From contig CAMWMN010000011.1 in the NCBI GenBank assembly GCA_947175385.1, positions 1 to 36,409 of the forward strand: a stretch of DNA of 36,409 nucleotides. Direction: 5' to 3'. Below the pieces are notes generated by a model. The model searched no databases. It worked only from the letters and a program-made list of their open reading frames with translations, and had not been told where the DNA came from. Source of the stretch: an uncultured Clostridia bacterium. GTDB lineage: Bacteria > Bacillota > Clostridia > Oscillospirales > Ruminococcaceae. Below are positions 12,927 through 24,830 of this stretch, one piece after another. A program made the position numbers and the translations under genes. How positions within the stretch are numbered: position 1 is the stretch's first letter; the number at the start of each line of letters is the position of its first letter.

Positions 12927-12967
12927 AAAAAATGCGGGGCAAACGCTCCGCTTTTTATACTTATGTA

Positions 12968-14182
12968 TCACCGCTTGTGACGATTTTGATTCGGCGGATT
13001 GCGGTGAGGCGGATTCTGAGCATTCCGTTCGCGGCACTTCTTTCTTGCTTCATCAAGCTTCTGCGACAGGGTTTTGGGCGGATTGGCTGCTTGAATGAAC
13101 TTCCTTTGTTCGTACATCTCCACTGTAAGTGCTGTGTTCTGCTTATGTAAAACCGCTATTTCATCGTCTTTCGCGTTGAGTTGTTCGTCTTTTTGGGCGA
13201 GCTGTTCATCACGTTCGGAAAGGGCTTGTTTCAATTCGGAAATCTCTCTTTTCGCGGATTTAAGCTCGCGGCGGCGATTTTCTACTCCCTCCTTGATTTT
13301 ATCAGCCCAGTTGTTAATGAGATTCGCGAGGGCTTGTCCGAACGAGAAACGCGGGGCGGTGAGGACGGCCGTGTTTCCAATTCCATCGGGGAGCGCGGAA
13401 AATTTGACAATATTGATGTTGTTTTGTGTGCCGCGTGTAGATGTGTAATTTGGGTGTACATACAAATTCTCTGTTTGTTTTGTTTTAAGGTTTATTTTGT
13501 CTTCCGTCAAAATTTTATATGGTCGTTCCTGCCCTATGTACAATTCCACTCCGTCTTGGAAAGCTGAGAAAATTTTCAAATGAATAGATGTTTTATCCTT
13601 ATTGTATCTGTCACAATACATAAAGAAATACATTTTTTCATTTGAATTACCTGTTGGAGTTGTGAGCAAATAATCGGCATTAATATCTACTTGTCTGTAT
13701 TTCCCATCAGGTGTTTTAATGAGAGTATTTGGTTTCTTCCATTTGTAGAAATCCCCTTTATAGGCTTCGGACAAAATTGATTCTATATTCTTTAATCTCT
13801 CAATGCGATTATTAATTGTATAACACTGTTGCGATTGGGGATTAAACGTTTTATTAATCGGCGACTCCAGAATCTTTCTATCCTCGGTGGTAAAATCCGA
13901 ATATTTTAACTTGCCGCTTAGTATACTCTCTAAAGCAGCACGTTTCAAACTGTTTTTATTTCTTACAAGCGTTTGGACTGTTGGAATATGGTCTAATCCG
14001 ACAACATGTGTAAATTCTGCCGGATTGACCGATATTACAAAAGATAACGCTTTGTTATTTTTTCCAACTGTAATTTTGAAACAGAAGTTTGAAACATTCT
14101 TAAATGATTGGGCAACCTCCAGAAAAGTTTGATTATCCGACGAAAACCACCCCCAATTATCAAAAAAGCCTTGATTTCTCAA
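12968..14182 (-). CDS. PBECR4-like nuclease domain protein with coiled-coil tail
   Basis: Up to 404 residues. Residues ~15-190 resemble the PBECR4 (phage barnase-EndoU-colicin-RelE-like) domain: F-C-F-K-I-T-V-G-K-x-x-K, F-T-H-V-V-G-L-D-H-I near 55, then Y-K-G-D-F-Y-K-W around 145. These are predicted RNases encoded by mobile elements and phages. Residues ~290-370 form a coiled coil (REISELKQALSERDEQLAQK). The last 30 residues are basic and Asn/Pro-rich. The start is unsatisfactory: the only in-frame start is a TTG at 14182, without a ribosome site and inside a terminator hairpin. The 5' end may therefore be lost or the gene silent. Confidence 0.6.
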   Translation of the reverse strand: MRNQGFFDNWGWFSSDNQTFLEVAQSFKNVSNFCFKITVGKNNKALSFVISVNPAEFTHVVGLDHIPTVQTLVRNKNSLKRAALESILSGKLKYSDFTTEDRKILESPINKTFNPQSQQCYTINNRIERLKNIESILSEAYKGDFYKWKKPNTLIKTPDGKYRQVDINADYLLTTPTGNSNEKMYFFMYCDRYNKDKTSIHLKIFSAFQDGVELYIGQERPYKILTEDKINLKTKQTENLYVHPNYTSTRGTQNNINIVKFSALPDGIGNTAVLTAPRFSFGQALANLINNWADKIKEGVENRRRELKSAKREISELKQALSERDEQLAQKDEQLNAKDDEIAVLHKQNTALTVEMYEQRKFIQAANPPKTLSQKLDEARKKCRERNAQNPPHRNPPNQNRHKR

Positions 14183-14380
14183 GGCTTTTTGGCATATTTT
14201 CTTTTCAGCATTTCCGCCTAGTAGGACTACGGTTCTTATGCAACCTCACAATAAGCTCCGCTTCGCCTTTGCCTACCCAAATTCGAAGTTTCATCACTTG
14301 CTCCCATCGCTACGACTGTTAAGTTTCGTCGTTGAGAGTCAGCTGCTTTCGCTGCCTGCATAACAGCTTTCACTGTTTCT
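14160..14380 (-). ncRNA. Stand-alone structured RNA, about 220 nt, family uncertain
   Basis: A complete small transcription unit on the minus strand: a consensus promoter (14387-14415), about 200 noncoding bases, and an intrinsic terminator AAGCCTTGA-GAAA-TCAAGGCTT followed by TTTTTG (14161-14188). The RNA contains several short GAAA-capped hairpins (AACAGTGAAAGCTGTT, GCAGCGAAAGCAGC), an ACGAC...GTCGT stem, GGCAAAGGCGAAGC and GTAGTCCTAC. GNRA-rich, multi-hairpin structure is typical of large structured bacterial RNAs; a raiA-type RNA is one guess, not a match I can prove. It sits between the phosphoesterase and PBECR4 genes of the island. Confidence 0.55.
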
Positions 14381-14386
14381 AAGTAT

Positions 14387-14415
14387 ATTATATGCTACTT
14401 TTTTGCGTTTGTCAA
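14387..14415 (-). promoter_or_regulatory. Strong promoter of the structured RNA
   Basis: Minus-strand TTGACA (14410-14415), a 17-base spacer and TATAAT (14387-14392), preceded by AAAATTTTGAAAAAGGGG of UP-element type. Confidence 0.85.
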
Positions 14416-14491
14416 CCCCTTTTTCAAAATTTTCTTGAAATTTTTTTCCATTCTGAAAAAGAAAAATCTGCGCGGATACACATAGCACCAT

Positions 14492-15073
14492 CTAGAAGAT
14501 GATTTCCGTCGTGTTCTCCGGGAACTTCACCAGAGCGCACCTATACACGCATAAAATATCGCACCCCTTGTACAATCGGCGTTTGGAGTCGCTGATGTGA
14601 TAATGCCCGCAGATGTTCAATCCCGGTTTGTTTTTCACGATGTATTTTGAAATGCCTTTAAGTCCGCAATGTGCGTTGTCAAGCCGTTCCATAGCGTGAT
14701 ACACGGTATCGTGAGAAATCAGAATATCCGCTTTTGGGCAGAGCTTTGCGGCGATAATACTCTCCCTCTGCGTGAGCATCGGATAATCACCGTTCTTGTA
14801 TCGATGAGAGCCGCCGAATCCCGCGATGGTTACGCCGTTCACCGTGACGGACTTTCCGTCAAGATTTTGGATTCCGCAGCGGGACAATGTACTCGGCTCG
14901 TCGTGATTTCCCAGAACGCCGAATAACGGCTTTTGCACAAGCCGCTTAATGATTTTCAGTGCTGCGTCGGGAATATCTCCGAGCAGACAGCAGCAGTCAT
15001 ATTCCAACTCGCGGATAAGCTCAAGCTCGTCCACGCTCCAATCGTGCAGGTCGGCTATTGCAAGAATTATCAT
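14492..15073 (-). CDS. Calcineurin-like metallophosphoesterase
   Basis: A 193-residue single-domain phosphoesterase of the YfcE/MJ0936-like size class. The metal-binding motifs are in order: A-D-L-H-D near the N-terminus, G-D-I-P-D (~32), G-N-H-D (~55), S-H-D-T-V-Y-H (~122) and G-H-Y-H (~156). It probably hydrolyses phosphodiesters or nucleotides; the substrate is not visible. The start at 15073 (MIILAIADLHD) is supported by GGAGGAGAAAA and by a four-base ATGA overlap with the upstream replication gene, so translation is coupled. It belongs to the island operon. Confidence 0.88.
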   Translation of the reverse strand: MIILAIADLHDWSVDELELIRELEYDCCCLLGDIPDAALKIIKRLVQKPLFGVLGNHDEPSTLSRCGIQNLDGKSVTVNGVTIAGFGGSHRYKNGDYPMLTQRESIIAAKLCPKADILISHDTVYHAMERLDNAHCGLKGISKYIVKNKPGLNICGHYHISDSKRRLYKGCDILCVYRCALVKFPENTTEIIF

Positions 15074-16200
15074 TTTTCTTCTCCTCCGTACAAATCGTGA
15101 TTCACCCACGCTTGGTAATAGCTGCCGATTGTTTCCGGAGCGTTATACAGTGTGGTTATCAAATACGCGCGGATATTGCGCACATTGGTCTTGTTCTTTT
15201 TCAGCGCGGTCAGAACGTAATCAATATGCCCCTCGTCAAGCTTCAGAAATACGGACTTTACCAGTTCCTTTGGATACTCCTCACCGTTTGCGCGGATTGT
15301 CGGTTTCGTTGAGCAAATCACGTCCAACATTATCGAGAGAAGCTCATCAATTTGTGCTTTCTCACCGGAATTATTCGCGCATAAATCCTCGTAGGAAATA
15401 TTTTCTTTCAGGATTGAAAAATAAAATTCTCGTTTGGATTGCGAATCAATCCCATCAATCACATCAGCCGAATCCTCGCGCGTATGCGCGATTGATGGAT
15501 TGATTATCTCAGGATTATTATATTTAGATTTTATAAAGTGCTGCTCCGACGTTTCGGCGGAGCTTGCTCCTACCTTTTGTCGAACCTTGCTCCGCCCTTT
15601 TGTCGGAGCAATGGAAGAATGCGGGTTTGCGGGCATTTTTTCGCGATTTTCATCAATATTTTCGGACATTTCGGGATTAATTTCCTCGGCAATTTCCGTG
15701 TAATGGTCCTCACAATTTTCGGAATCACTTTCGGGCATAATTGTCCCCAATCCTTCTGACAGAAAATTAATCAAGTTCTGAGTTTCGGGATTCGGAGTGG
15801 TCGGACGCTTTTTCTCGTAACGCTCGGCAGCGGCGGGTTTAATCTCACGCATTTTCGCCTCTCCCGCAGCAATTAAATCCTGCAGCACAGTAACGTCCTC
15901 GACTATGTAAAAGCTCCGTTTTGCGGGCATTCCGCGCAGTTCTGAGCGAATCAATCCTGCGCTTACGAGATTATCCACAGCGCGTTTTTGCTGTTTTTCG
16001 GAGAGCGCGGTACTCTCGGCGAGGTCGGGAGCGGTGGAGTAGAACCACCCGTCCTCACGCATTCCGCGCTCGGAATAGTAGTAAAATTTCGAGATTAACG
16101 CGCCATAAATTACCGCCTCATTCAATCCCAGAGCGTGCGCCAACGGACGGTTTACCGTAACCGTGTTCGCGGGATTTACCAGTTGAAAAATCGCATTCAT
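15070..16200 (-). CDS. Replication initiator-like protein (winged helix plus DUF6017)
   Basis: A 376-residue protein. The N-terminal ~110 residues (LAHALGLNEAVIYGALISKF, GWFYSTAPDLAESTALSEKQ, LVSAGLIRSELRGMPAKR) are the winged-helix DNA-binding module found in replication-organiser proteins of plasmids, phages and ICEs. The middle ~130-260 is low-complexity and acidic. The C-terminal ~290-372 (EYPKELVKSVFLKLDEGHIDYV...RNIRAYLITTLYNAPETIGSYY) matches DUF6017. Together these indicate an initiator or accessory protein for replication of the excised element. AAGGAGG lies before the ATG. It is upstream-coupled to the phosphoesterase. Confidence 0.8.
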   Translation of the reverse strand: MNAIFQLVNPANTVTVNRPLAHALGLNEAVIYGALISKFYYYSERGMREDGWFYSTAPDLAESTALSEKQQKRAVDNLVSAGLIRSELRGMPAKRSFYIVEDVTVLQDLIAAGEAKMREIKPAAAERYEKKRPTTPNPETQNLINFLSEGLGTIMPESDSENCEDHYTEIAEEINPEMSENIDENREKMPANPHSSIAPTKGRSKVRQKVGASSAETSEQHFIKSKYNNPEIINPSIAHTREDSADVIDGIDSQSKREFYFSILKENISYEDLCANNSGEKAQIDELLSIMLDVICSTKPTIRANGEEYPKELVKSVFLKLDEGHIDYVLTALKKNKTNVRNIRAYLITTLYNAPETIGSYYQAWVNHDLYGGEEK

Positions 16201-16269
16201 ACTTTTGTCCTCCTTAGTTTTTGGGGATTATATCACATTCCCAACTGCAAAAAAATGAAATTCTTTGCA

Positions 16270-16297
16270 ACAAAAAATCCCGAAATTAATCGGGATT
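16270..16297 (-). terminator. Intrinsic terminator after the relaxase gene
   Basis: On the minus strand AATCCCGATTAATTTCGGGATT is followed by a T-run (TTTTTTG). It overlaps the last base of the relaxase stop codon. Confidence 0.75.
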
Positions 16298-17925
16298 CAA
16301 ATTATTTTATCGGGAGCTTGCTTTTGCTGCTCCGGCTCTTGTTTCGATTTGTTTTCCTGCTCGTTTTGCGCCTTTAGAAGATTGTCGATGTAGTTGCCCT
16401 CGACAATTTCCTCGTATGCGCTGATGAGCGTTTTTACGCGAGCGAGCTTGAGCTGTTCCTCAATCAATTCCGATTTCAAATTCTGAACATACATTGGAAT
16501 CAATTTCAAACGCCGCTCCAGATTTTCAATATCCTCCTCGGATTTAATTCCGTATTTCCCCGCCTTTTCACGAGCCGTCGAAATTTTCATCTGCGCCATC
16601 GTGTCCTTGGAATTTTTCAAGTCTGAAAATAAAAGTTTTATCTGCGCAATATCGGATTTCAATGTGGGAATTTCGGTATTAAGCCGATTAATTTCCGCAT
16701 TTTTCTCCGAGATATTTTTCGTGAAATCCTCAGCGGCAGCGTAAATTTTATCGCGGGAATCCAAATTCAAGTCGTGCATTGTAAGCAACTGTTCCGAAAG
16801 AAAATTGATGTCGCGGTCGTTGTCAAACGTGTAAATCTTTTTCGGATTTGTTTTGCGCGGACTGTAACGCAGCGTGCGGATCTCGATGATTGTATGCGTA
16901 ATTGTCGCGTAAAACGGTTGTTCGATTTCGGTTGATGTTTTAGATTTTGCCGCGACAGCTTTCGGGAATTTTTCTTTTTCGGTGATGCGTTTCTCCAGAT
17001 TTTTCGGAGAATATTCTTCGCCGAGAGATTTCAAACGCACAAATCGCTGCGCCTTTGGCGACTTCACCGCGATGTATTTTGCGTCAGATTTTATTTCATA
17101 ACCGAGCTTGGTTTTCAATTTTTGGAGCAAATCCGCGAGATTCTCCGAGGAATAAATCAAGCGGTCAATATCAAGCGCGATTTCCGCGCGGATTCCAATA
17201 TTTTTCTGCGGAATAAATTTCGCCGCGACCGCCGCGCAAGTCTTTTGCGCGTATTCTTTGTATTCATCGACCTTCATATAATCACGGTGAATATTTTTAT
17301 TGTCGCGGGAAAATCCGTGCTTTTTCAAAATTGCTTCAAGATGATCCTTTTCTTTTTCCGCCCAGATGGTTTGCTCATTTGCGGATCGGTTTACAGAATA
17401 AAATCCTTGTTCAAGCAATGCGCCCTTTAACGAAACGGCAGTCGACAATCCCTGTTTGTGACTGTGACAAATCGGAATGAAATCAATGTGAAGATGAGGC
17501 GTTGCCTCGTCCAGATGCATAACCGCATTGAAAACTTTCAGATTGGGATTTCTTTTTTCAAATTCCAGCATATACTCATCAAGCATTTCCTTTGCGGCTT
17601 CCTCATTAATTGTTCCAATGCCGCGGTTATCCTTGTCGCCGATTTGCACGATTATCTCACGAAAAAGTTTTTCCTTTTTTGATTTCATAATCTCGTGGAG
17701 ATAGTCGGACTTTTTTCTGTCAGCGCGTTTCTGTTTCGCGTTATATCCCTCGACAGCCTTGTCAAAAAGCTCGTGATATTTATCAGCGAGATTTTCCTTT
17801 TTGTATGCAATATTCAATGAAATTCTATCGCAGTTAACGTTCTTTGCAATGAAGTCGCGGTTATTGTGTTCAACCACTCCATCGTCAATTCGGAACGAAA
17901 GTGAAACATTTTTTGAATTGCTCAT
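16297..17925 (-). CDS. MOBV-family relaxase (MobA/MobL, Mob_Pre type)
   Basis: A 542-residue mobilization protein. Motif I H-N-N-R is at 20-23, and the metal-binding motif III H-L-D-E-A-T-P-H-L-H is at 137-146, the MOBV hallmark. The C-terminal half has long coiled coils (~430-520). Such relaxases nick one strand at oriT, stay covalently attached and lead transfer through a conjugation channel of a helper element. I chose the ATG at 17925 because ACGGAGGTAAC lies just before it; an upstream in-frame start at 18144 would add 73 residues running through the oriT-like repeats. No type IV secretion genes are present. Confidence 0.92.
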   Translation of the reverse strand: MSNSKNVSLSFRIDDGVVEHNNRDFIAKNVNCDRISLNIAYKKENLADKYHELFDKAVEGYNAKQKRADRKKSDYLHEIMKSKKEKLFREIIVQIGDKDNRGIGTINEEAAKEMLDEYMLEFEKRNPNLKVFNAVMHLDEATPHLHIDFIPICHSHKQGLSTAVSLKGALLEQGFYSVNRSANEQTIWAEKEKDHLEAILKKHGFSRDNKNIHRDYMKVDEYKEYAQKTCAAVAAKFIPQKNIGIRAEIALDIDRLIYSSENLADLLQKLKTKLGYEIKSDAKYIAVKSPKAQRFVRLKSLGEEYSPKNLEKRITEKEKFPKAVAAKSKTSTEIEQPFYATITHTIIEIRTLRYSPRKTNPKKIYTFDNDRDINFLSEQLLTMHDLNLDSRDKIYAAAEDFTKNISEKNAEINRLNTEIPTLKSDIAQIKLLFSDLKNSKDTMAQMKISTAREKAGKYGIKSEEDIENLERRLKLIPMYVQNLKSELIEEQLKLARVKTLISAYEEIVEGNYIDNLLKAQNEQENKSKQEPEQQKQAPDKII

Positions 17926-18382
17926 CTTGTTACCTCCGTAAGATTTTGAAAATACTTTTTCGCGGAAATTGAAAAAATCCGTACAAAAATTGGATTCTTT
18001 TTCAGCATTGAAACGATTTCGCCGAAACCGATTTTCGCGGCATTTTCCAACACAAAATACAGGGGGTGCGCCAAAGTTGCTATACTCTATAGCAATCTTG
18101 GCAAAACTCCGTTTTGCTAAGATTTGCCATATCGCTAGGGACACCCTAGAACCCGTGGATTTTCTTGAAAAAATTTTCTCGTTTTCGCTTTCGCTTTTCG
18201 GGAAAATTTTTTCAAAAAAATCAAAAAACCTCGCCTAAAATATTTCACATTCTGTGAAAACTTTTTCGGATTTTTATTTCAAAAATATTTTCGATTCTCG
18301 AAAAATTTTTGAAAAAATCCGCGCTATCGCGGCGAGGTTTTTTGCCGACCTAGGGGCTTCGCCCCTAAAACCCTTTTTCAAA
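17926..18382 (-). other. Noncoding region with candidate oriT
   Basis: A 457-base gap upstream of the relaxase gene, the usual oriT site in MOBV elements. Three adjacent inverted repeats stand out: GCCAAAGTTGCTATA/TATAGCAATCTTGGC (18070-18102, 13 of 15 pairs), GCAAAAC-TCC-GTTTTGC (18101-18117) and perfect CTAGGG-ACA-CCCTAG (18135-18149). The rest is strongly A/T-rich with repeated TTTTTCAAAA-like runs and holds no gene. The nick site cannot be fixed from sequence alone. Confidence 0.5.
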
Positions 18383-19294
18383 TTACCGATGAGAATGCGT
18401 AGATTTTGGCGGCGATTTTTGCTGCGTTTGCGCTAAATTCCGTGTGGATTTTTGAAGCAGTTCATTGTAATCTTTAACATTGTTTTCCTCTAAAATTCTG
18501 CGGCACGGAATCAAATTATTTGTTTCCGTGAATTTAATTCCCTTCTCGTCATTGTCCACACACGAGTAAATTTTCATTCCGCTTTCTGCGATTTTTTTGA
18601 GCGAATTTTGTTTCAATCCTGCCATTGAAACCAACACGGAATTTTGAATTTTATCTTGATTCGCAAGCTGTTTGAAACTCAGCAAATCAATCGCGGATTC
18701 AAAAACATAACACTTTTGCGGGATTCCAATAGTCACGGCGAACACGCTTTCGCCGGTTCCCTCCGCAACTCCTTTGAAGCGTTTTTCGGAATTTGTGCCT
18801 TGAATTTCCGCGCCGACTATTTTTCCGTTCTCGTCACGGTGGACGAAAACCGCGTTTCCGCGCGTGTCTTGATACAGGAGTTTATCGCGCGCCAATTGCG
18901 AAACAATTTCGGAATTTATTCCGCGCGTTTTGCAAAGATACGCGAAAACTTTTTTCATATTATCCGCTTTTTCGGGCATAACCAATTCTTTTTTCTGTGC
19001 CGAAAAAGAATTGGTTTCGTGGCGCGGAGTGTGTGAAATTTCGCTGCCTGTCAATTCGCGGACGGCGGTTTTGAAATCCATTTCCAACATTTCCGTCAAG
19101 CAGTTTATCGCGTTGCTTCCGCCCTTGTTCGCGGAAAAACACGTCCACTGATTCGTATTGACATTGATGTAAAATCCGCCGAATCCCTTGACGTGCAGCT
19201 CGTCTTTTTTTAACTCGCAATCATACCCGTGCGTCTGAAAGTACTCCGCGAGGTTTGCACCGCGCGACGTTTCCACCTGCTCTTTCCATTCCAT
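18383..19294 (-). CDS. DUF3991/Toprim primase-like protein
   Basis: A 303-residue protein. The N-terminal ~75 residues (RGANLAEYFQTHGYDCELKK, FGGFYINVNTNQWTCFSANKGG) look like a CHC2-type primase zinc-finger remnant in which the cysteines are largely lost. DUF3991 follows (~105-190, AYLCKTRGINSEIVSQLARD) and a Toprim core (~195-285, with V-F-E-S-A-I-D-L-L-S and C-V-D-N-D-E-K-G). Such proteins are accessory replication factors in ICEs and mobilizable elements. The start at 19294 (MEWKEQ) has a GAAGGGA site; an in-frame start at 19333 would lie in the terminator. It sits just downstream of the helicase remnant. Confidence 0.82.
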   Translation of the reverse strand: MEWKEQVETSRGANLAEYFQTHGYDCELKKDELHVKGFGGFYINVNTNQWTCFSANKGGSNAINCLTEMLEMDFKTAVRELTGSEISHTPRHETNSFSAQKKELVMPEKADNMKKVFAYLCKTRGINSEIVSQLARDKLLYQDTRGNAVFVHRDENGKIVGAEIQGTNSEKRFKGVAEGTGESVFAVTIGIPQKCYVFESAIDLLSFKQLANQDKIQNSVLVSMAGLKQNSLKKIAESGMKIYSCVDNDEKGIKFTETNNLIPCRRILEENNVKDYNELLQKSTRNLAQTQQKSPPKSTHSHR

Positions 19295-19317
19295 AAAATC
19301 AGTCCCTTCATAAAAAA

Positions 19318-19340
19318 TGCCCCGACTTTTCATCGGGGCA
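19318..19340 (-). terminator. Intrinsic terminator between helicase remnant and primase gene
   Basis: Minus-strand TGCCCCGA-TGAAAAG-TCGGGGCA followed by TTTTTTA, directly after the helicase remnant stop at 19352. Confidence 0.8.
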
Positions 19341-19351
19341 TTATAAAATTA

Positions 19352-20345
19352 TCATCTGCCGCGTTTCGGCGGATTTGGTTTTTTCGGAGGAATTTCGCCA
19401 TCGTGTCCGTTAAGATTTTCGCTATCGTCAATCGCGACTTCATCAACTTTCTCGATGTTGAGTTCCTTGTTCAACTTCTCCAGACGCGCGGATTTTTCGC
19501 GCAGCTCGTCTGCGTACTCGAACGGTGCGTCCTTGGTGCGTTCCGCTTCGGTGAGATTTCTTTGCGCGTACTCAAGCTCATTTTGCAGACTCGAAATTTT
19601 CTTGTCAATACCGATTTTCAGAATGTTTTCAAGCCGCGTTATATTTCCCATATCACTGTCGAGATTTGTTTCCGAATCGTAAGTCAGACCGTCATCTCGA
19701 TGCAGAAAAAGATTTGGAGCAGCCGCAAAATTCACTGTCAGTGAGAGCTTAAATCCGCAGTATTCGCCGATTTCCGTATTGGTTTTAGACTTTCATAACT
19801 GCCATTATTTCACGCCTTAGAGCTTCTCCCGCTTTGGCGCGTTCGGTGTAGATTTTTCCGCCGATTTGCACGGAAAATTCACCGTCCGGCAGCACGTTTT
19901 TCTCTGCAGTCTCTTTGTCGGCTTTTGCTTTAGGCAGCGCGATTTCCGTAATCCTTTGAATGCTCGCGCTATATCCCGCGATTCTGTCTTGCAATTCGAA
20001 TCTATGTTTTTGATGTTTGCTTTCAAGCAGCCGCAGCCGCGCAACATTATTATCCAATTCGATTTTCTCCTTGATTCGCGGGTCGCCGCTTGCGATAGCT
20101 TGCATCTCGGAATAATTCAGAACCATCTCGTCAACGTCGCTGCACGTTCTCACTGGGCAGAAGCTGCCTCCAAGAGTTTTCCCGGTCATAATCTGAGAAA
20201 TAAATTTCTGCTTGTTGACGATGATGGACATCATATACGAATCGAACGTCTTTTCAGTCAGATAGTTGAACACCCGAACGCTTTTATTTTCGTTGCCGCG
20301 CCGGACAATTCGTCCTAAACGCTGCTCCAAATCTGTTGAACATAC
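19352..20345 (-). pseudogene. C-terminal remnant of SNF2-type helicase/methylase gene
   Basis: Two frames in order give the end of the large helicase/N6-methylase protein of ICEs. Frame one, 19785-20345, holds helicase motif VI (DLEQRLGRIVRRGNEN) then NKQKFISQIMTGK. Frame two, 19352-19784, continues KTNTEIGEYCGFKLSLTVNF and the final coiled coil ending PPKRGR. A one-base insertion near 19787 (AAAGTC-T-AAAACC) puts a TAA into the first frame. The remnant begins abruptly at about 20345, where the helicase core should precede it; the core is replaced by the cassette 20346-21925. Confidence 0.8.
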
Positions 20346-20380
20346 TTTACGGTACATCTGGATAATCGAGTGTATGACAT

Positions 20381-20466
20381 CACAACAAAAAAGAACCCCG
20401 CCGATTTGTAATCGGCGGGGGTTCAAGCAAATACAGAAAGGCTGCGCAGAAAACTACGCAGCCTTT
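20381..20466 (-). terminator. Two consecutive intrinsic terminators
   Basis: Minus strand, first AAAGGCTGCG/CGCAGCCTTT (20437-20466). Then GAACCCCCGCCGATT/AATCGGCGGGGTTC (20393-20424) followed by TTTTTTG. Both follow the 4Fe-4S pseudogene. Confidence 0.75.
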
Positions 20467-20555
20467 CTTGTCATATTCGTTGGGGTTTGAAATCAATGCA
20501 GAGGCAATGATATTAGAAAAAATACAAATTAGCCTAATAAAATTGGAGCTTGTTA

Positions 20556-21208
20556 TTATGTTCCAAACGGACAAGCGACCATGCAAAGACCGCAAGCATT
20601 TTTTCTTCCATGTGTTTTAATATATAAACTTCTTTTTTCGTTACATAACCTATAATCTATTATATCACTTCTTAATGAATTGATATTCCATTGTACATCA
20701 TGCAATGCTTTATATGGGCAAACATCAACACATTTATTGCAATTTTCAGGACAATTACTCTTTAAGATTTTGTTACCATAAACAAATTGTTCATTTATTA
20801 AGATTACAGATAGCCTTATTCTTGGTCCATATTTTTTTGTAATAACAACATCATTTTTTCCAATCCAACCTAATCCAACATTTACTGCCGCAAACTTGAA
20901 AGAAAAAGGAGCTATCAAATCTACCTCGTTGTTTTGCGCAACAGATGGAATATAATATTTCGCTTTATTTTCATCAAGCATTTTTGCAGTTGTGCTAAAA
21001 TTTTTTCCAATACTTTTTTAGCATCTTGAATACCCTTTTCAAACTTTTCTTCAGAATATGTTTCAATTGTAAGTTGTTCCCCGTAAGGGACTGCAAATAC
21101 TAAAGCAGATTTATATGTATTTGCATATTCACTGTATGCAATATTTGTTAATCCATAAATAACTTCCGGATATTCTAAAAATATATTGCGAATATTCTTT
21201 TCAACCAT
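20556..21208 (-). pseudogene. QueG-like 4Fe-4S protein, frameshifted
   Basis: Two overlapping frames make one ~217-residue protein resembling the short clostridial epoxyqueuosine-reductase-like family. The first part starts at 21208 (MVEKNIRNIFLEYPEVIYGL). The second holds G-L-G-W-I-G-K-N-D, C-x3-C-x2-C-x3-C-P (NCPENCNKCVDVCP) and C-G-L-C-M-V-A-C-P. The frame breaks in GAAAAAATTTTAGC near 21003, where one base is missing relative to VLEKI-FSTTAKM. Otherwise length and clusters are normal. Promoter, ribosome site (GAGGTGG) and terminators are intact. A sequencing error in the homopolymer is an alternative to true inactivation. Confidence 0.75.
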
Positions 21209-21260
21209 GTAAACCACCTCAAAAAACTTCCTATTTATCTGTGAGTTCTTCGATATACAA

Positions 21261-21289
21261 ATTATACCACATTATCCGCTATTTGTCAA
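21261..21289 (-). promoter_or_regulatory. Consensus promoter of the 4Fe-4S gene
   Basis: Minus-strand TTGACA (21284-21289), a 17-base spacer ending TGTGG, and TATAAT (21261-21266). Confidence 0.85.
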
Positions 21290-21309
21290 AAAATTTTGCA
21301 GATTTATTC

Positions 21310-21915
21310 CTAAAATTCACTATCAAATATCATTGCTGAGTTCCTCTCCAAGTCCTTCAAAGCGTCAACCGCCTGATTAAGCACAAGCTGATACATCGCG
21401 TTGCGGATCGAGCTTGTAATGCTGGCATCGGAGCTTGACGTGACCTCCGCGATATATTCATCAACCGTTCTATAGCGGTCTAAATAACGGCACACGGCAT
21501 TCAGAAAACTTCCCTCGTATTTCCCCGAAAGCTTGTAATCGTCCTCTATATTGCTGTCGGCTTGTTCAAGCAGCAAGTTGATGATCCGCAGCCGATTGTT
21601 ATTTTCTTTTATCGGACTTATAAGCATATGTACCGCTATGTCCGAAATTCCTAATTTGTCGCAAATGCTTTTTAATTTCGGCTCTTACGTCCGAGCGTTG
21701 TTGCCCCCGATAAGATAATCCGCTGAAACGTCCAAAACGTCTGCCGTTTCCCCCGCAACTATGATGTCGGGTACTCTGTTCTGGCTCTCGTAATACCCCA
21801 CCGAGCTTTTGGAGAAACCGACCTTGTTCGCAAATTCCCCAATGGTAAGACCGCGCTCCAGCCGCAGTTCCTTTAATCTTTTAATGAAAATTTCTCGATA
21901 ATAATCACGTGTCAT
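21310..21915 (-). pseudogene. XRE-family regulator interrupted by an in-frame stop
   Basis: From the ATG at 21915: MTRDYYREIFIKRLKELRLE, then a Cro/C1 helix-turn-helix (LTIGEFANKVGFSKSSVGYYESQNRVP) and VLDVSADYLIGGNNART. After that a TAA (21685-21687) is followed in the same frame by EPKLKSICDKLGISDIAVHM and 105 more residues of helical C-terminal domain to 21310. Clostridial regulators of this type normally run straight through this point (YLLG-x-T...ICDYLGLSE-x-AV), so one 201-residue protein has acquired a nonsense codon. The DNA-binding half alone could still be made. No own promoter is visible upstream of the junction. Confidence 0.75.
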
Positions 21916-21925
21916 AATTTCCCAA

Positions 21926-23848
21926 AGCGCAGAGCAGATTATAATCGTTATCATCGCTGAAAACGGAAGAATTTTCGCGGAAATTTACATCCCCGTACTG
22001 CTTGACAAAACTGTCGTACTGCTCGTTAAGCGCGGTCTGGAGCGTGGAAAGCTCCTCATCGGAGCAGCGGTTCTCTTGTGCGGTAATCACTCCGCGCTCC
22101 TCGGCGCGCTTTTCCTCGCGCCGCGACTTGACAATATCCCGCTGCAGACGCATTACCGCGCGGTCGAGCTGTTCTGCTAGCCCGGCTCGGGTTGCCAAAT
22201 ACGCTCCGGGAACTGGTTCGCAGGTTGCCTCTTGCCCGATTCTCCCGGACGTCATTTGCATTTTTCCGAGAATCATTTCGGGGTGGTCAACAAAATACTG
22301 ATTCACGGAAATTCCCTCGGAAATTTCGGCAGTGTAGCACCAATCGGGATTTTCCACCGCCATTTTCTCGCGCTTTGCAGAAAAATAATATCGCTCGTGA
22401 CTTCCGTTCCCGCGTTCGCGAACGCGTTATTCGGCAGACGAATCGCACCCACCAAATTCGCGCGTTTCGCCAGATATTCGCGCACCTTGGAATTGGCTTT
22501 ATCAAGCGTTCCTTTGGACGGTTACAAACGCGACAATTCCTCCCGATGCAACCTTGTCGAGCGTTTTCGCAAAGAAGTAGTCGTGAATCAGAAAATGTTC
22601 CTTGTCGTAACGTTTATCCGCAACGGAATAATTTCCAAACGGCACATTTCCGACCGCGAGGTCGAAAAAATTGTCCGGAAAATCTGTGCTTTCAAAGCCG
22701 TTGATTTGGATTTCCGCGTTTGGGTAGAGCTGCTGCGCGATTCTCCCGGTTATGCTGTCAAGCTCCATGCCGAACAGCTTGCTGTCGCTCATTTTATCGG
22801 GAATGCAGCCGAAAAAGTTCCCGATTAGGACATTTCCCGACTTAAATCCCATATTCCCGACCGCCTTGTAAATCACGTTTATCACGGTCGTGGAGGTGTA
22901 ATGCGCGTTCAGAGTGCTGCTGCGCGCCGCCGTGTATTCCTCGTCTGTCAGCAGCTCCTTCAGCTTCGAGAATCCCTTTGTCCACGCGGAGTTTTCGCTG
23001 TCAAACACCTGCGAAATTCCGCCCCAACCGACATACTGCGCAAGGATTTTCTGCTCGTCGGGAGTCGCAGTTCTACCCTCGGATTCAATGGATTTCAGCG
23101 TTTTTATCGCGTTAACGTTTGCGCGAAATTTTGCCTTTGCTCCACCCTCGATGGTGCTTTCGTCAGTAATCGTGAAGTTCCTGCTGATTTCGGGAAAGTC
23201 ATCAGACCGCTCCATTGTGACGTTTTCGGAGGTTAATTGTTGCTCAACAATTTTCGGAACAGCCACCAGATACTCGCCCCCGTCCTTTGTCAAATGCTCT
23301 TTCCAATGCCCGAAAATGCTGCTCACGGACTGAATTGAATCCTTGTCTGCGTTCTCAAAATCAATCGAAAAATCACCGCCTATTTCAGTGATTATCCACA
23401 CATTTCCGTCGTATCTTACATAGTCGCCGACCTGCAATTCATCAACACTTTTGGGATTTTCGGACGGCAGAAATTCCGGGGAAATCTCGGAGGATTTGCG
23501 CAGCGTGGGAGTTTGTTCCGCGTCAATAAGGTCGTGCATACGGTCGTAGTCCTCCTTGCTCATTCGGTTGGGGTCGTATGCGTAAGGGTCGAAATTCTCC
23601 TCCGGGGCGTAGGTATACTCATCATACGGGATTCCGTTTTCGTGCGCAAATTCCGCGCGCGAGGAATTTAGGAATGCCTCACGGATTTCTGCATTATAGT
23701 ACAAAATTGTACTACGCGCGTCTACCGCCTTTGCCAATTCGGGATTTTCGATTTCGCACTCAATAGGAGCTTTTTGCAACGCTTCGCGAACGTTCTCGTT
23801 CTCGGCAGTCAGCTTGTAAACATAATCTTTCCAAGATTCATCTCTATA
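21926..23848 (-). pseudogene. N6-methylase half of the SNF2/methylase gene, broken
   Basis: Open from the right tRNA repeat (23848) leftward. Recognisable parts: FSKLKELLTDEEYTAARSST, LNAHYTSTTVI, SAM-binding/catalytic region GNVLIGNFFGCIP and D-L-A-V-G-N-V-P-F-G. One extra base near 22517 (ACC-G-TCC) shifts the frame; the correct sequence resumes as VREYLAKRANLVGAIRLPNN. One base missing near 22379 (CTGCAAAGCGC) shifts it back at KREKMAVENPDWCY. The protein then runs to D-Y-N-L-L-C-A-L and ends at the cassette. The N-terminus is cut by the att repeat, so neither end is native. Confidence 0.85.
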
Positions 23849-23898
23849 AAATCTGTTGCGTTTTCACTTCGGTGGTCCGAATCCACCCGCATCCATCA
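23849..23898 (+). repeat. Right-end attachment repeat (tRNA-Tyr 3' fragment)
   Basis: Fifty bases matching tRNA-Tyr 10644-10693 except at 23866 (A for G) and 23896 (T for C). It starts inside the anticodon stem and runs to the CCA end, now TCA. It is not a functional tRNA. This is the direct repeat expected from site-specific integration at a tRNA 3' end. Confidence 0.9.
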
Positions 23899-23918
23899 GC
23901 GCGGTATCCGCGCAGTCG

Positions 23919-24037
23919 ATTCCCAATGAAACGCTCATTGGGAATTTTTTGTTTTCGCTGTAAGGTTGAAGCGATAATCTTATTTGTCGGCGAATCGCAG
24001 TTGAGGAAAAAGTCCTTGCTTTCGCAAGGGCTTTTTT
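23919..24037 (+). terminator. Two terminator-like hairpins beyond the att repeat
   Basis: ATTCCCAATGA/TCATTGGGAAT with a run of six T (23919-23950), then AGTCCTTGC/GCAAGGGCT with six T (24011-24037). The first probably was the original tRNA operon terminator before the island came in. The stretch 23899-24199 holds no other recognisable feature; its overlapping minus-strand frames are Arg/Ala-rich and not credible. Confidence 0.65.
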
Positions 24038-24167
24038 GCTCAGCGCAAAGGCATTTGCGGCTCGCCTTTGTCGAACCGCGAATGCTCTTTGCCGGCGCAC
24101 TTTTTCCTTTGCGAACCACTTCGCGAAACCTGAAAAACTGCGCGGAGTAGTTCCTCTCAAATAAGGT

Positions 24168-24197
24168 AACCCCCCCACTCCGGCGGGGAGGGTTTTT
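24168..24197. terminator. GC-rich hairpin with T-run
   Basis: ACCCCCCC...GGGGAGGGT with TTTTTG on the plus side, three bases from the stop of the minus-strand gene ending at 24200. Confidence 0.6.
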
Positions 24198-24199
24198 GT

Positions 24200-24785
24200 T
24201 TATCCCGAATAGCCCTCTTTATACCAAGTGCGCCATTTATCGGCAAAAGGCTCTTTTTCAACTTTACCCGATCTGTCAATATTTATGGAAGAAGGTTTTC
24301 CGGTGTAATTTTCATCGGCATAGACCAGATAAATATTAAAGGCGCGGTCTTCATTGAATTTCAGGGATTCCAAATACGCGTTCATAACCAACAGCATATC
24401 TCCGTCCTCGTCATAGTAAGCCTCAATGTATGAAAAAAACGGGATATATATGTTCTCCGTCATTTTGATATTTATCCCGCAGTCCTGCCAGTGCCGACAC
24501 AAATTCCTCACCGATAATGTCCTTTTCCGACGGTGCGGACAATAGGCTGCCATTTTCGGCATTGAACTTGGCGATATACAGTCCGTCAATGTACAAACCC
24601 TTAAAATAAGACGTTATCTCATCAAAGCTCTCCCTGTTGGAATAATAGTAGTTTTCCACCATGCGATGTTTGGATTTAGCCTTGTCGAATGATATTTTCA
24701 ACAATATAGCCGGAATAACCATTGTCAACAGAATCCATATACAAACCGAAATAAGAACCTTGTATCTTAATTTAACATTTGACAT
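24200..24785 (-). pseudogene. Membrane-anchored unknown protein, frameshifted at a T7 tract
   Basis: The frame from 24785 encodes a short cytoplasmic tail, one membrane helix (~8-30, VLISVCIWILLTMVIPAILL) and an extracytoplasmic part ending HIYPVFFIH. The overlapping frame to 24200 continues SYIEAYYDEDGDMLLVMNAY to the end (KEGYSG). Removing one base of the seven-T tract (minus strand, 24434-24440) joins them into a ~194-residue protein. Not recognised. It could be a true frameshift, a phase-variable homopolymer or a sequencing error. It is followed by a terminator hairpin and preceded by a gene of similar layout. Confidence 0.65.
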
Positions 24786-24830
24786 AAATTCCTCCGATAT
24801 TCTTATTATATATTATACTTTCTCTATTCC

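Follow-up and report, generated by a model that had tools for sequence, protein, structure and literature searches.

How a predicted nuclease gene is expressed when its reading frame runs back into a transcription terminator, and what ties it to the structured RNA that precedes it, are questions raised by a locus on a contig from an uncultured Clostridia bacterium of the family Ruminococcaceae (GenBank assembly GCA_947175385.1, contig CAMWMN010000011.1; all 36,409 nucleotides of the analysed stretch are referred to here as the window). A first-pass annotation had observed that this PBECR4-like gene offers a single start codon, a TTG inside the terminator, and had proposed either that translation depends on terminator read-through, with the RNA and the nuclease acting as regulatory partners, or that the gene is truncated at its 5′ end. 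In the window, an RNA gene, an intrinsic terminator, and a toxin-like gene follow one another behind one promoter, and the locus comprises these parts:

14386 to 14415, minus strand: sigma-70-type promoter of the RNA (TTGACA ... TATAAT), identified from sequence and lying in a region of 95% identity to locus L088
14300 to 14380, minus strand: 5′ segment of the transcript, not covered by the Rfam model; other drum loci of the family carry a similar sequence (ACGAAACTTAACAGTCGTAGC)
14189 to 14299, minus strand: drum RNA, RF02958 (cmscan, 55.1 bits, E = 8e-8)
14163 to 14190, minus strand: intrinsic terminator between RNA and gene, containing TTG 14182; found in this position in all 24 homologous loci
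14147 to 14154, minus strand: Shine-Dalgarno-like remnant GGGGGTGG, identified from sequence
14132 to 14140, minus strand: site of the missing start codon, located by alignments with L013, L015, L088, and L089 and by profile comparison
13403 to 14140, minus strand: PBECR4 domain (predicted RNase) retaining the conserved His and Ser (PF18813, 42.6 bits; alignment A3)
12968 to 13402, minus strand: C-terminal coiled-coil tail, nearly unchanged relative to L088 (DNA 88-100% identical over 12941-13300; dN/dS 0.27)

The RNA belongs to the drum class, which Rfam lists as a stand-alone sRNA gene (RF02958); its score lies above the gathering cut-off of 43 bits, and the match covers the whole model. The k-turn within drum folds in vitro (PMC8191799). 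Comparison of 31 drum sequences revealed covariation in two helices that lie outside the first hairpin, one of them a loop pseudoknot and the other a helix at the 3′ end. The pseudoknot joins alignment columns 23-28 with 82-87, exhibits two-sided changes in six of six pairs, and is 90.8% paired, and in the 3′ helix all five pairs covary (88.4% paired). The structure as a whole is 91.4% paired, compared with 70% in shuffled and 30-41% in slid versions. By the evidence of covariation, drum is a pseudoknot. The structure line in Rfam does not include the loop pseudoknot; the candidate pairing in the window is between GUAGG (14276-14272) and CCUAC (14225-14221). As would be expected of pseudoknots, minimum-energy z-scores are uninformative even for true drums (0.13 for the window copy and -0.48 for that of L041). 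No tandem repeat was found in the RNA region of the window (14150-14420). The literature that we searched, which did not extend to the original 2017 drum paper (10.1093/nar/gkx699), states no function for this RNA.

The PBECR4 label given in the first-pass annotation proved correct. The PF18813 score exceeds the cut-off of 27 bits, with a match spanning profile positions 3-185; a default hmmscan of the window protein did not list the family. Residues H59 and S206 (window ORF numbering) are invariant in alignment A3, and active-site roles for His and Ser in this family come from published work (PMC5512222); in L041 the counterpart of the conserved histidine falls in a predicted helix. Structure models for two PBECR4 clades (pLDDT 88.8 and 77.0) yielded no significant PDB fold match; one unnamed viral protein did match. 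The predicted role of PBECR4 as an endoribonuclease therefore draws on the published profile (PMC5512222) together with these two conserved residues. Close pairs of PBECR4 genes have dN/dS ratios of 0.07-0.10, which places the genes under purifying selection; no close relative of the window domain was available for a test of decay. The queries used recovered no PBECR4 relatives from a phage collection and viral contigs. PADLOC and NCBIfam searches gave no match, and patterns back-translated from the window protein found no relatives. In the literature searched we encountered neither the name PBECR4 nor any report of toxicity, RNase activity, or RNA-protein binding for a member of the family.

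The proposed partnership of RNA and nuclease is strongly supported by synteny that is conserved not only in Clostridia but also in another class and on plasmids. In all 24 drum-PBECR4 loci checked, the RNA is followed by a terminator, a ribosome site, and, at a distance of 38-61 nt, a start codon (ATG in 23, GTG in one), with spacing and strand fixed, and a promoter-like match lies 5′ of 22 of these 24 homologous units. Among 299 genomes of the same family, 11 carry drum in a total of 21 copies, with PBECR4 directly after it in L008, L013, L015, L016 (the window), and L019, and in truncated form in L021. Among 391 genomes of the same class, drum was found in 19 and PBECR4 in 29, and about half of the PBECR4 genes follow a recognized drum. 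Twelve of these same-class units have a drum at or above the gathering score, to which G478 (41.6 bits) and L076 (43.0 bits) add one each, giving 14 adjacent units where rough arithmetic predicts fewer than 1e-4 by chance. The RNAs upstream of PBECR4 in L070 and L071 are weak drum matches (34 bits), and in L039 and L040 a further drum lies before a PBECR4 remnant or a frameshifted copy.

The same arrangement extends to a PBECR4 gene from another class (L090; drum at 52.3 bits) and to all three PBECR4 loci read on Enterococcus and Streptococcus plasmids (46-52 bits). On an E. faecalis plasmid (L083), the unit adjoins genes for an AbiH-family protein and a single-strand binding protein. In a second collection, a covariance model built in this analysis placed drum upstream of 13 of 15 PBECR4 loci, 12 of these matches being independent, as the protein of L092 is the same as that of model member L029; hosts include Hungatella hathewayi, [Clostridium] symbiosum, Enterocloster, and Roseburia. 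The remaining two loci are one that ends at a contig end and a pseudogene (L106). Our literature search, again exclusive of the 2017 drum paper, found no publication joining drum with PBECR4 or with a toxin.

The association is asymmetric. RNA copies lacking an intact PBECR4 gene are common, and the two PBECR4 genes found without an upstream RNA (L062 and L106) are broken. Many orphan drums reside in genomes without any PBECR4, so drum may have further roles. Two genomes from the window's genus (G144 and G269; L011, L012, L020, L022, and L024-L028) each contain four or five drums and no PBECR4, and some of these copies stop at contig ends with common sequence. In G536 and G314 (L045 and L047-L050), orphan drums occupy repeated sequence, each just past the 3′ end of a gene whose product ends in ...VNDRAGIYGE and before a long hairpin. 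Other neighbors were also observed: in L010 (307-1807), drum and a terminator directly precede a small gene and a gene for a HipA-like kinase, and in L017 the drum at 1501-1605 is followed, on the minus strand, by a DUF3990 (ADP-ribosyltransferase-like) gene.

Drum is one of several RNAs found in front of PBECR4. A second kind without an Rfam match, which we call type B, precedes the gene in L054, L059, L061, L065, L066, and L078, and, as judged by eye, in L064. Its members have the common core GTTGGCRGACAAC...AAAAATC, and the copy in L061 (2107-2219) contains a tandem repeat of 53 nt in 2.1 copies that are 85% alike. A drum-like RNA, type C, precedes PBECR4 in L070-L073, and a third unlisted kind (GGATATCGAGGCTGACARCCAGC) is common to L060 and L086; for L074, L075, L077, and L091, each a single case, the RNA was assessed by eye alone. 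On a tree of 35 PBECR4 proteins, in which the window protein groups with that of L013 (97/97), each RNA type lies on one side of a branch. The RNA types change seven times on this tree, the fewest possible, compared with a mean of 15.2 after shuffling.

Further support for the partnership, beyond this agreement between RNA type and protein clade, comes from L088, which represents the same element in a genome of the same genus. Measured per 60 bases, identity ranges over 67-98% in the flank upstream of the promoter (15640-14441), exceeding 82% for the most part, and is 95% in the promoter stretch (14440-14381). From 14380 to approximately 13361, the span of the transcript and the PBECR4 domain, identity is 30-62%, and it returns to 88-100% in the tail (13300-12941). 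This profile indicates that the RNA and the catalytic domain differ together, as a single block with shared sequence on either side, a joint exchange of the kind that cognate partners would be expected to show.

We consider it probable that these loci are mobile modules composed of a promoter, drum, a leaky terminator, and PBECR4, in which the RNA would inhibit the predicted nuclease, and that the window holds a copy whose start codon has been lost. Most transcripts would end at the terminator and supply drum RNA in excess, and the few that read through would give rise to PBECR4. The folded drum would then bind the protein and keep it inactive until the supply of RNA stops, as might occur upon shut-off by a phage or loss of the element, whereupon the nuclease would be freed. 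Binding of a toxin by an RNA antitoxin, as in AbiF/RCd22 (PMC12373285), fits the layout, the asymmetry in which RNA occurs without toxin but not the reverse in intact form, and the joint exchange. A broader reading, to which we also lean, is that PBECR4 proteins may be the toxins of an undescribed, mobile superfamily of type III-like toxin-antitoxin or abortive-infection systems with clade-specific RNA antitoxins (drum, type B, and others), RNA and nuclease domain being swapped as specificity cassettes. If true, this would explain what the orphan drum RNA does. Drum is conserved and structurally studied, and its conserved protein partner makes its function directly testable, in a pair that gut bacteria and enterococci carry on plasmids and integrative elements.

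A possible but unlikely alternative is that drum is a cis-acting leader that senses a ligand or PBECR4 itself and decides passage through the terminator, thereby controlling the gene in cis only. An attenuator would have the identical layout, as RNA, terminator, and gene follow one another on one strand in every unit, and a leader would likewise travel together with its protein. Such a leader is at odds with the existence of well-conserved orphan drums that have a promoter and a terminator and no PBECR4, and with the Rfam entry type, that of an sRNA gene. Moreover, terminator stems are no more complementary to their own drum than to others (P = 0.34 and 0.38); a drum-terminator switch was rejected, as no locus-specific complementarity between the two was seen.

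As for the window gene itself, several sequence observations of the first-pass annotation were borne out. The ORF (12968-14182, minus strand) comprises 404 codons without a stop or frameshift, and its frame is open through the terminator hairpin AAAAAGCCTTGAGAAATCAAGGCTTTTT (14190-14163) back to 14245, following a stop at 14248-14246. TTG 14182, in the 5′ arm of this hairpin, is the lone start candidate, no other in-frame ATG, GTG, or TTG occurring before 13948, and no ribosome site precedes it. Use of this TTG as a start, however, is unsupported and was rejected in light of the homologues, all of which begin 3′ of the terminator with a ribosome site of their own. What had been missed is a Shine-Dalgarno-like GGGGGTG 3′ of the window terminator (~14154-14148), at the right distance to serve a start at 14140-14132. 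The span in which the starts of homologues would fall, 38-61 nt past the end of the drum in homologous loci, corresponds to 14151-14128 and contains no start codon; where one would be expected, the sequence reads TCG (14140), GAT (14137), and AAT (14134). The approximately 35 open codons 5′ of this site are unremarkable alone; the homologues L002 and L004 carry an in-frame stop in this stretch, and L003/L015 does not.

The homologues have no longer N-terminus and start at the very position expected for the window gene. Those of the same family begin MNDLLFDCAQ (L002/L013), MNDILLDAAQ (L003/L015), and MDDLLFKAAE (L004), against which the window reads DNQTFLEVAQ; those of the same genus, with the same order of parts and a start after the terminator, begin MSTIYDAAIE (L088) and MDTLYDAALQ (L089). 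The idea that the gene had lost its 5′ end therefore holds in a narrower form: the start codon itself is gone, at 14140-14132, and loss of a longer N-terminus is rejected, as the starts of the homologues coincide with this site.

We regard as improbable that a non-standard start still allows expression of the gene, whether at TTG 14182 in transcripts that pass the terminator or at a rare codon close to 14140. The 404 open codons, free of stops and frameshifts, and the preserved active-site residues would fit continued expression, but no homologue begins in the terminator, the TTG is buried in a stable stem and lacks a ribosome site, TCG, GAT, and AAT occupy the expected place, and CTG 14122 is too distant from GGGGGTG. 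Still more doubtful is an error in assembly, to which a draft genome of metagenome type in 171 contigs might be prone; two or more substitutions would be needed to turn ATG into the observed codon, and the surrounding DNA is otherwise regular and matches L088. That mobile elements merely carry drum and PBECR4 side by side as unrelated cargo is very improbable: both do occur on such elements and drum is also found alone, but spacing and strand are fixed in 24 of 24 units, RNA type matches protein clade perfectly, the two share an exchange block, and the 14 units observed far exceed the chance expectation given above.

The simplest reading is that the start codon was lost from an otherwise open and probably recently silenced gene. 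By analogy with type III and AbiF systems, transcription of the window gene by terminator read-through is plausible; the copy is probably translationally dead, with an RNA that is intact as judged by its score. Under the RNA-inhibited module that we favor, a copy in which the nuclease is probably no longer made would be antitoxin-only. Nearby, the region 14960-24800 contains remnants of a mobilizable or conjugative element, including a DUF6017 protein, a MobV-type relaxase, and a DUF3991/Toprim primase; a large protein (19785-24785) is apparently split into several ORFs, with a ferredoxin-like gene inside the span.

With respect to described families, the window RNA is a member of Rfam drum (RF02958), to which the tie with PBECR4 and the covarying loop pseudoknot are added here, and the window protein is a member of Pfam PBECR4 (PF18813), among the BECR-type nucleases of polyvalent proteins (PMC5512222). 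The PF18813 members here are encoded by stand-alone genes that an RNA precedes, instead of within phage polyvalent proteins. With the type III systems ToxIN, CptIN, TenpIN, and AbiQ, the loci share an RNA, a terminator, and then an endoribonuclease gene (predicted here), a pseudoknotted RNA (as is ToxI), and residence on plasmids and other mobile elements. However, PBECR4 is not of the ToxN/AbiQ family by Pfam, and no ToxN match to PBECR4 was found among PDB sequences or folds. Drum also has no tandem repeats, unlike the type B RNA of the L061 clade. Because the toxin family differs and drum has no repeats, we do not file drum-PBECR4 as type III.

The AbiF/RCd22 system of Clostridioides difficile combines an Abi_2 protein with the abiF RNA (RF03085), a proven RNA antitoxin (PMC12373285). 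Both arrangements place a SigA promoter, a structured RNA of ~100-130 nt, an intrinsic terminator, a ribosome site, and a toxin gene on one strand, with an RNA drawn from a published RNA-motif set and read-through (presumed here) as the source of the toxin mRNA. They differ in that the toxin there is an Abi_2/Cas13-ancestor protein rather than PBECR4, and in that two abiF motifs are present there, compared with a single drum bearing a pseudoknot and a k-turn here; neither an Abi_2 (Pfam) nor an abiF RNA (Rfam) match occurs in the window. Binding and toxicity are proven for AbiF/RCd22 and are predicted for drum-PBECR4. By these analogies, drum-PBECR4 resembles type III and AbiF systems in its likely working, with a different RNA and a different toxin. 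It would represent a second RNA-motif/toxin pair beside AbiF, and one in which several RNA families serve a single toxin family.
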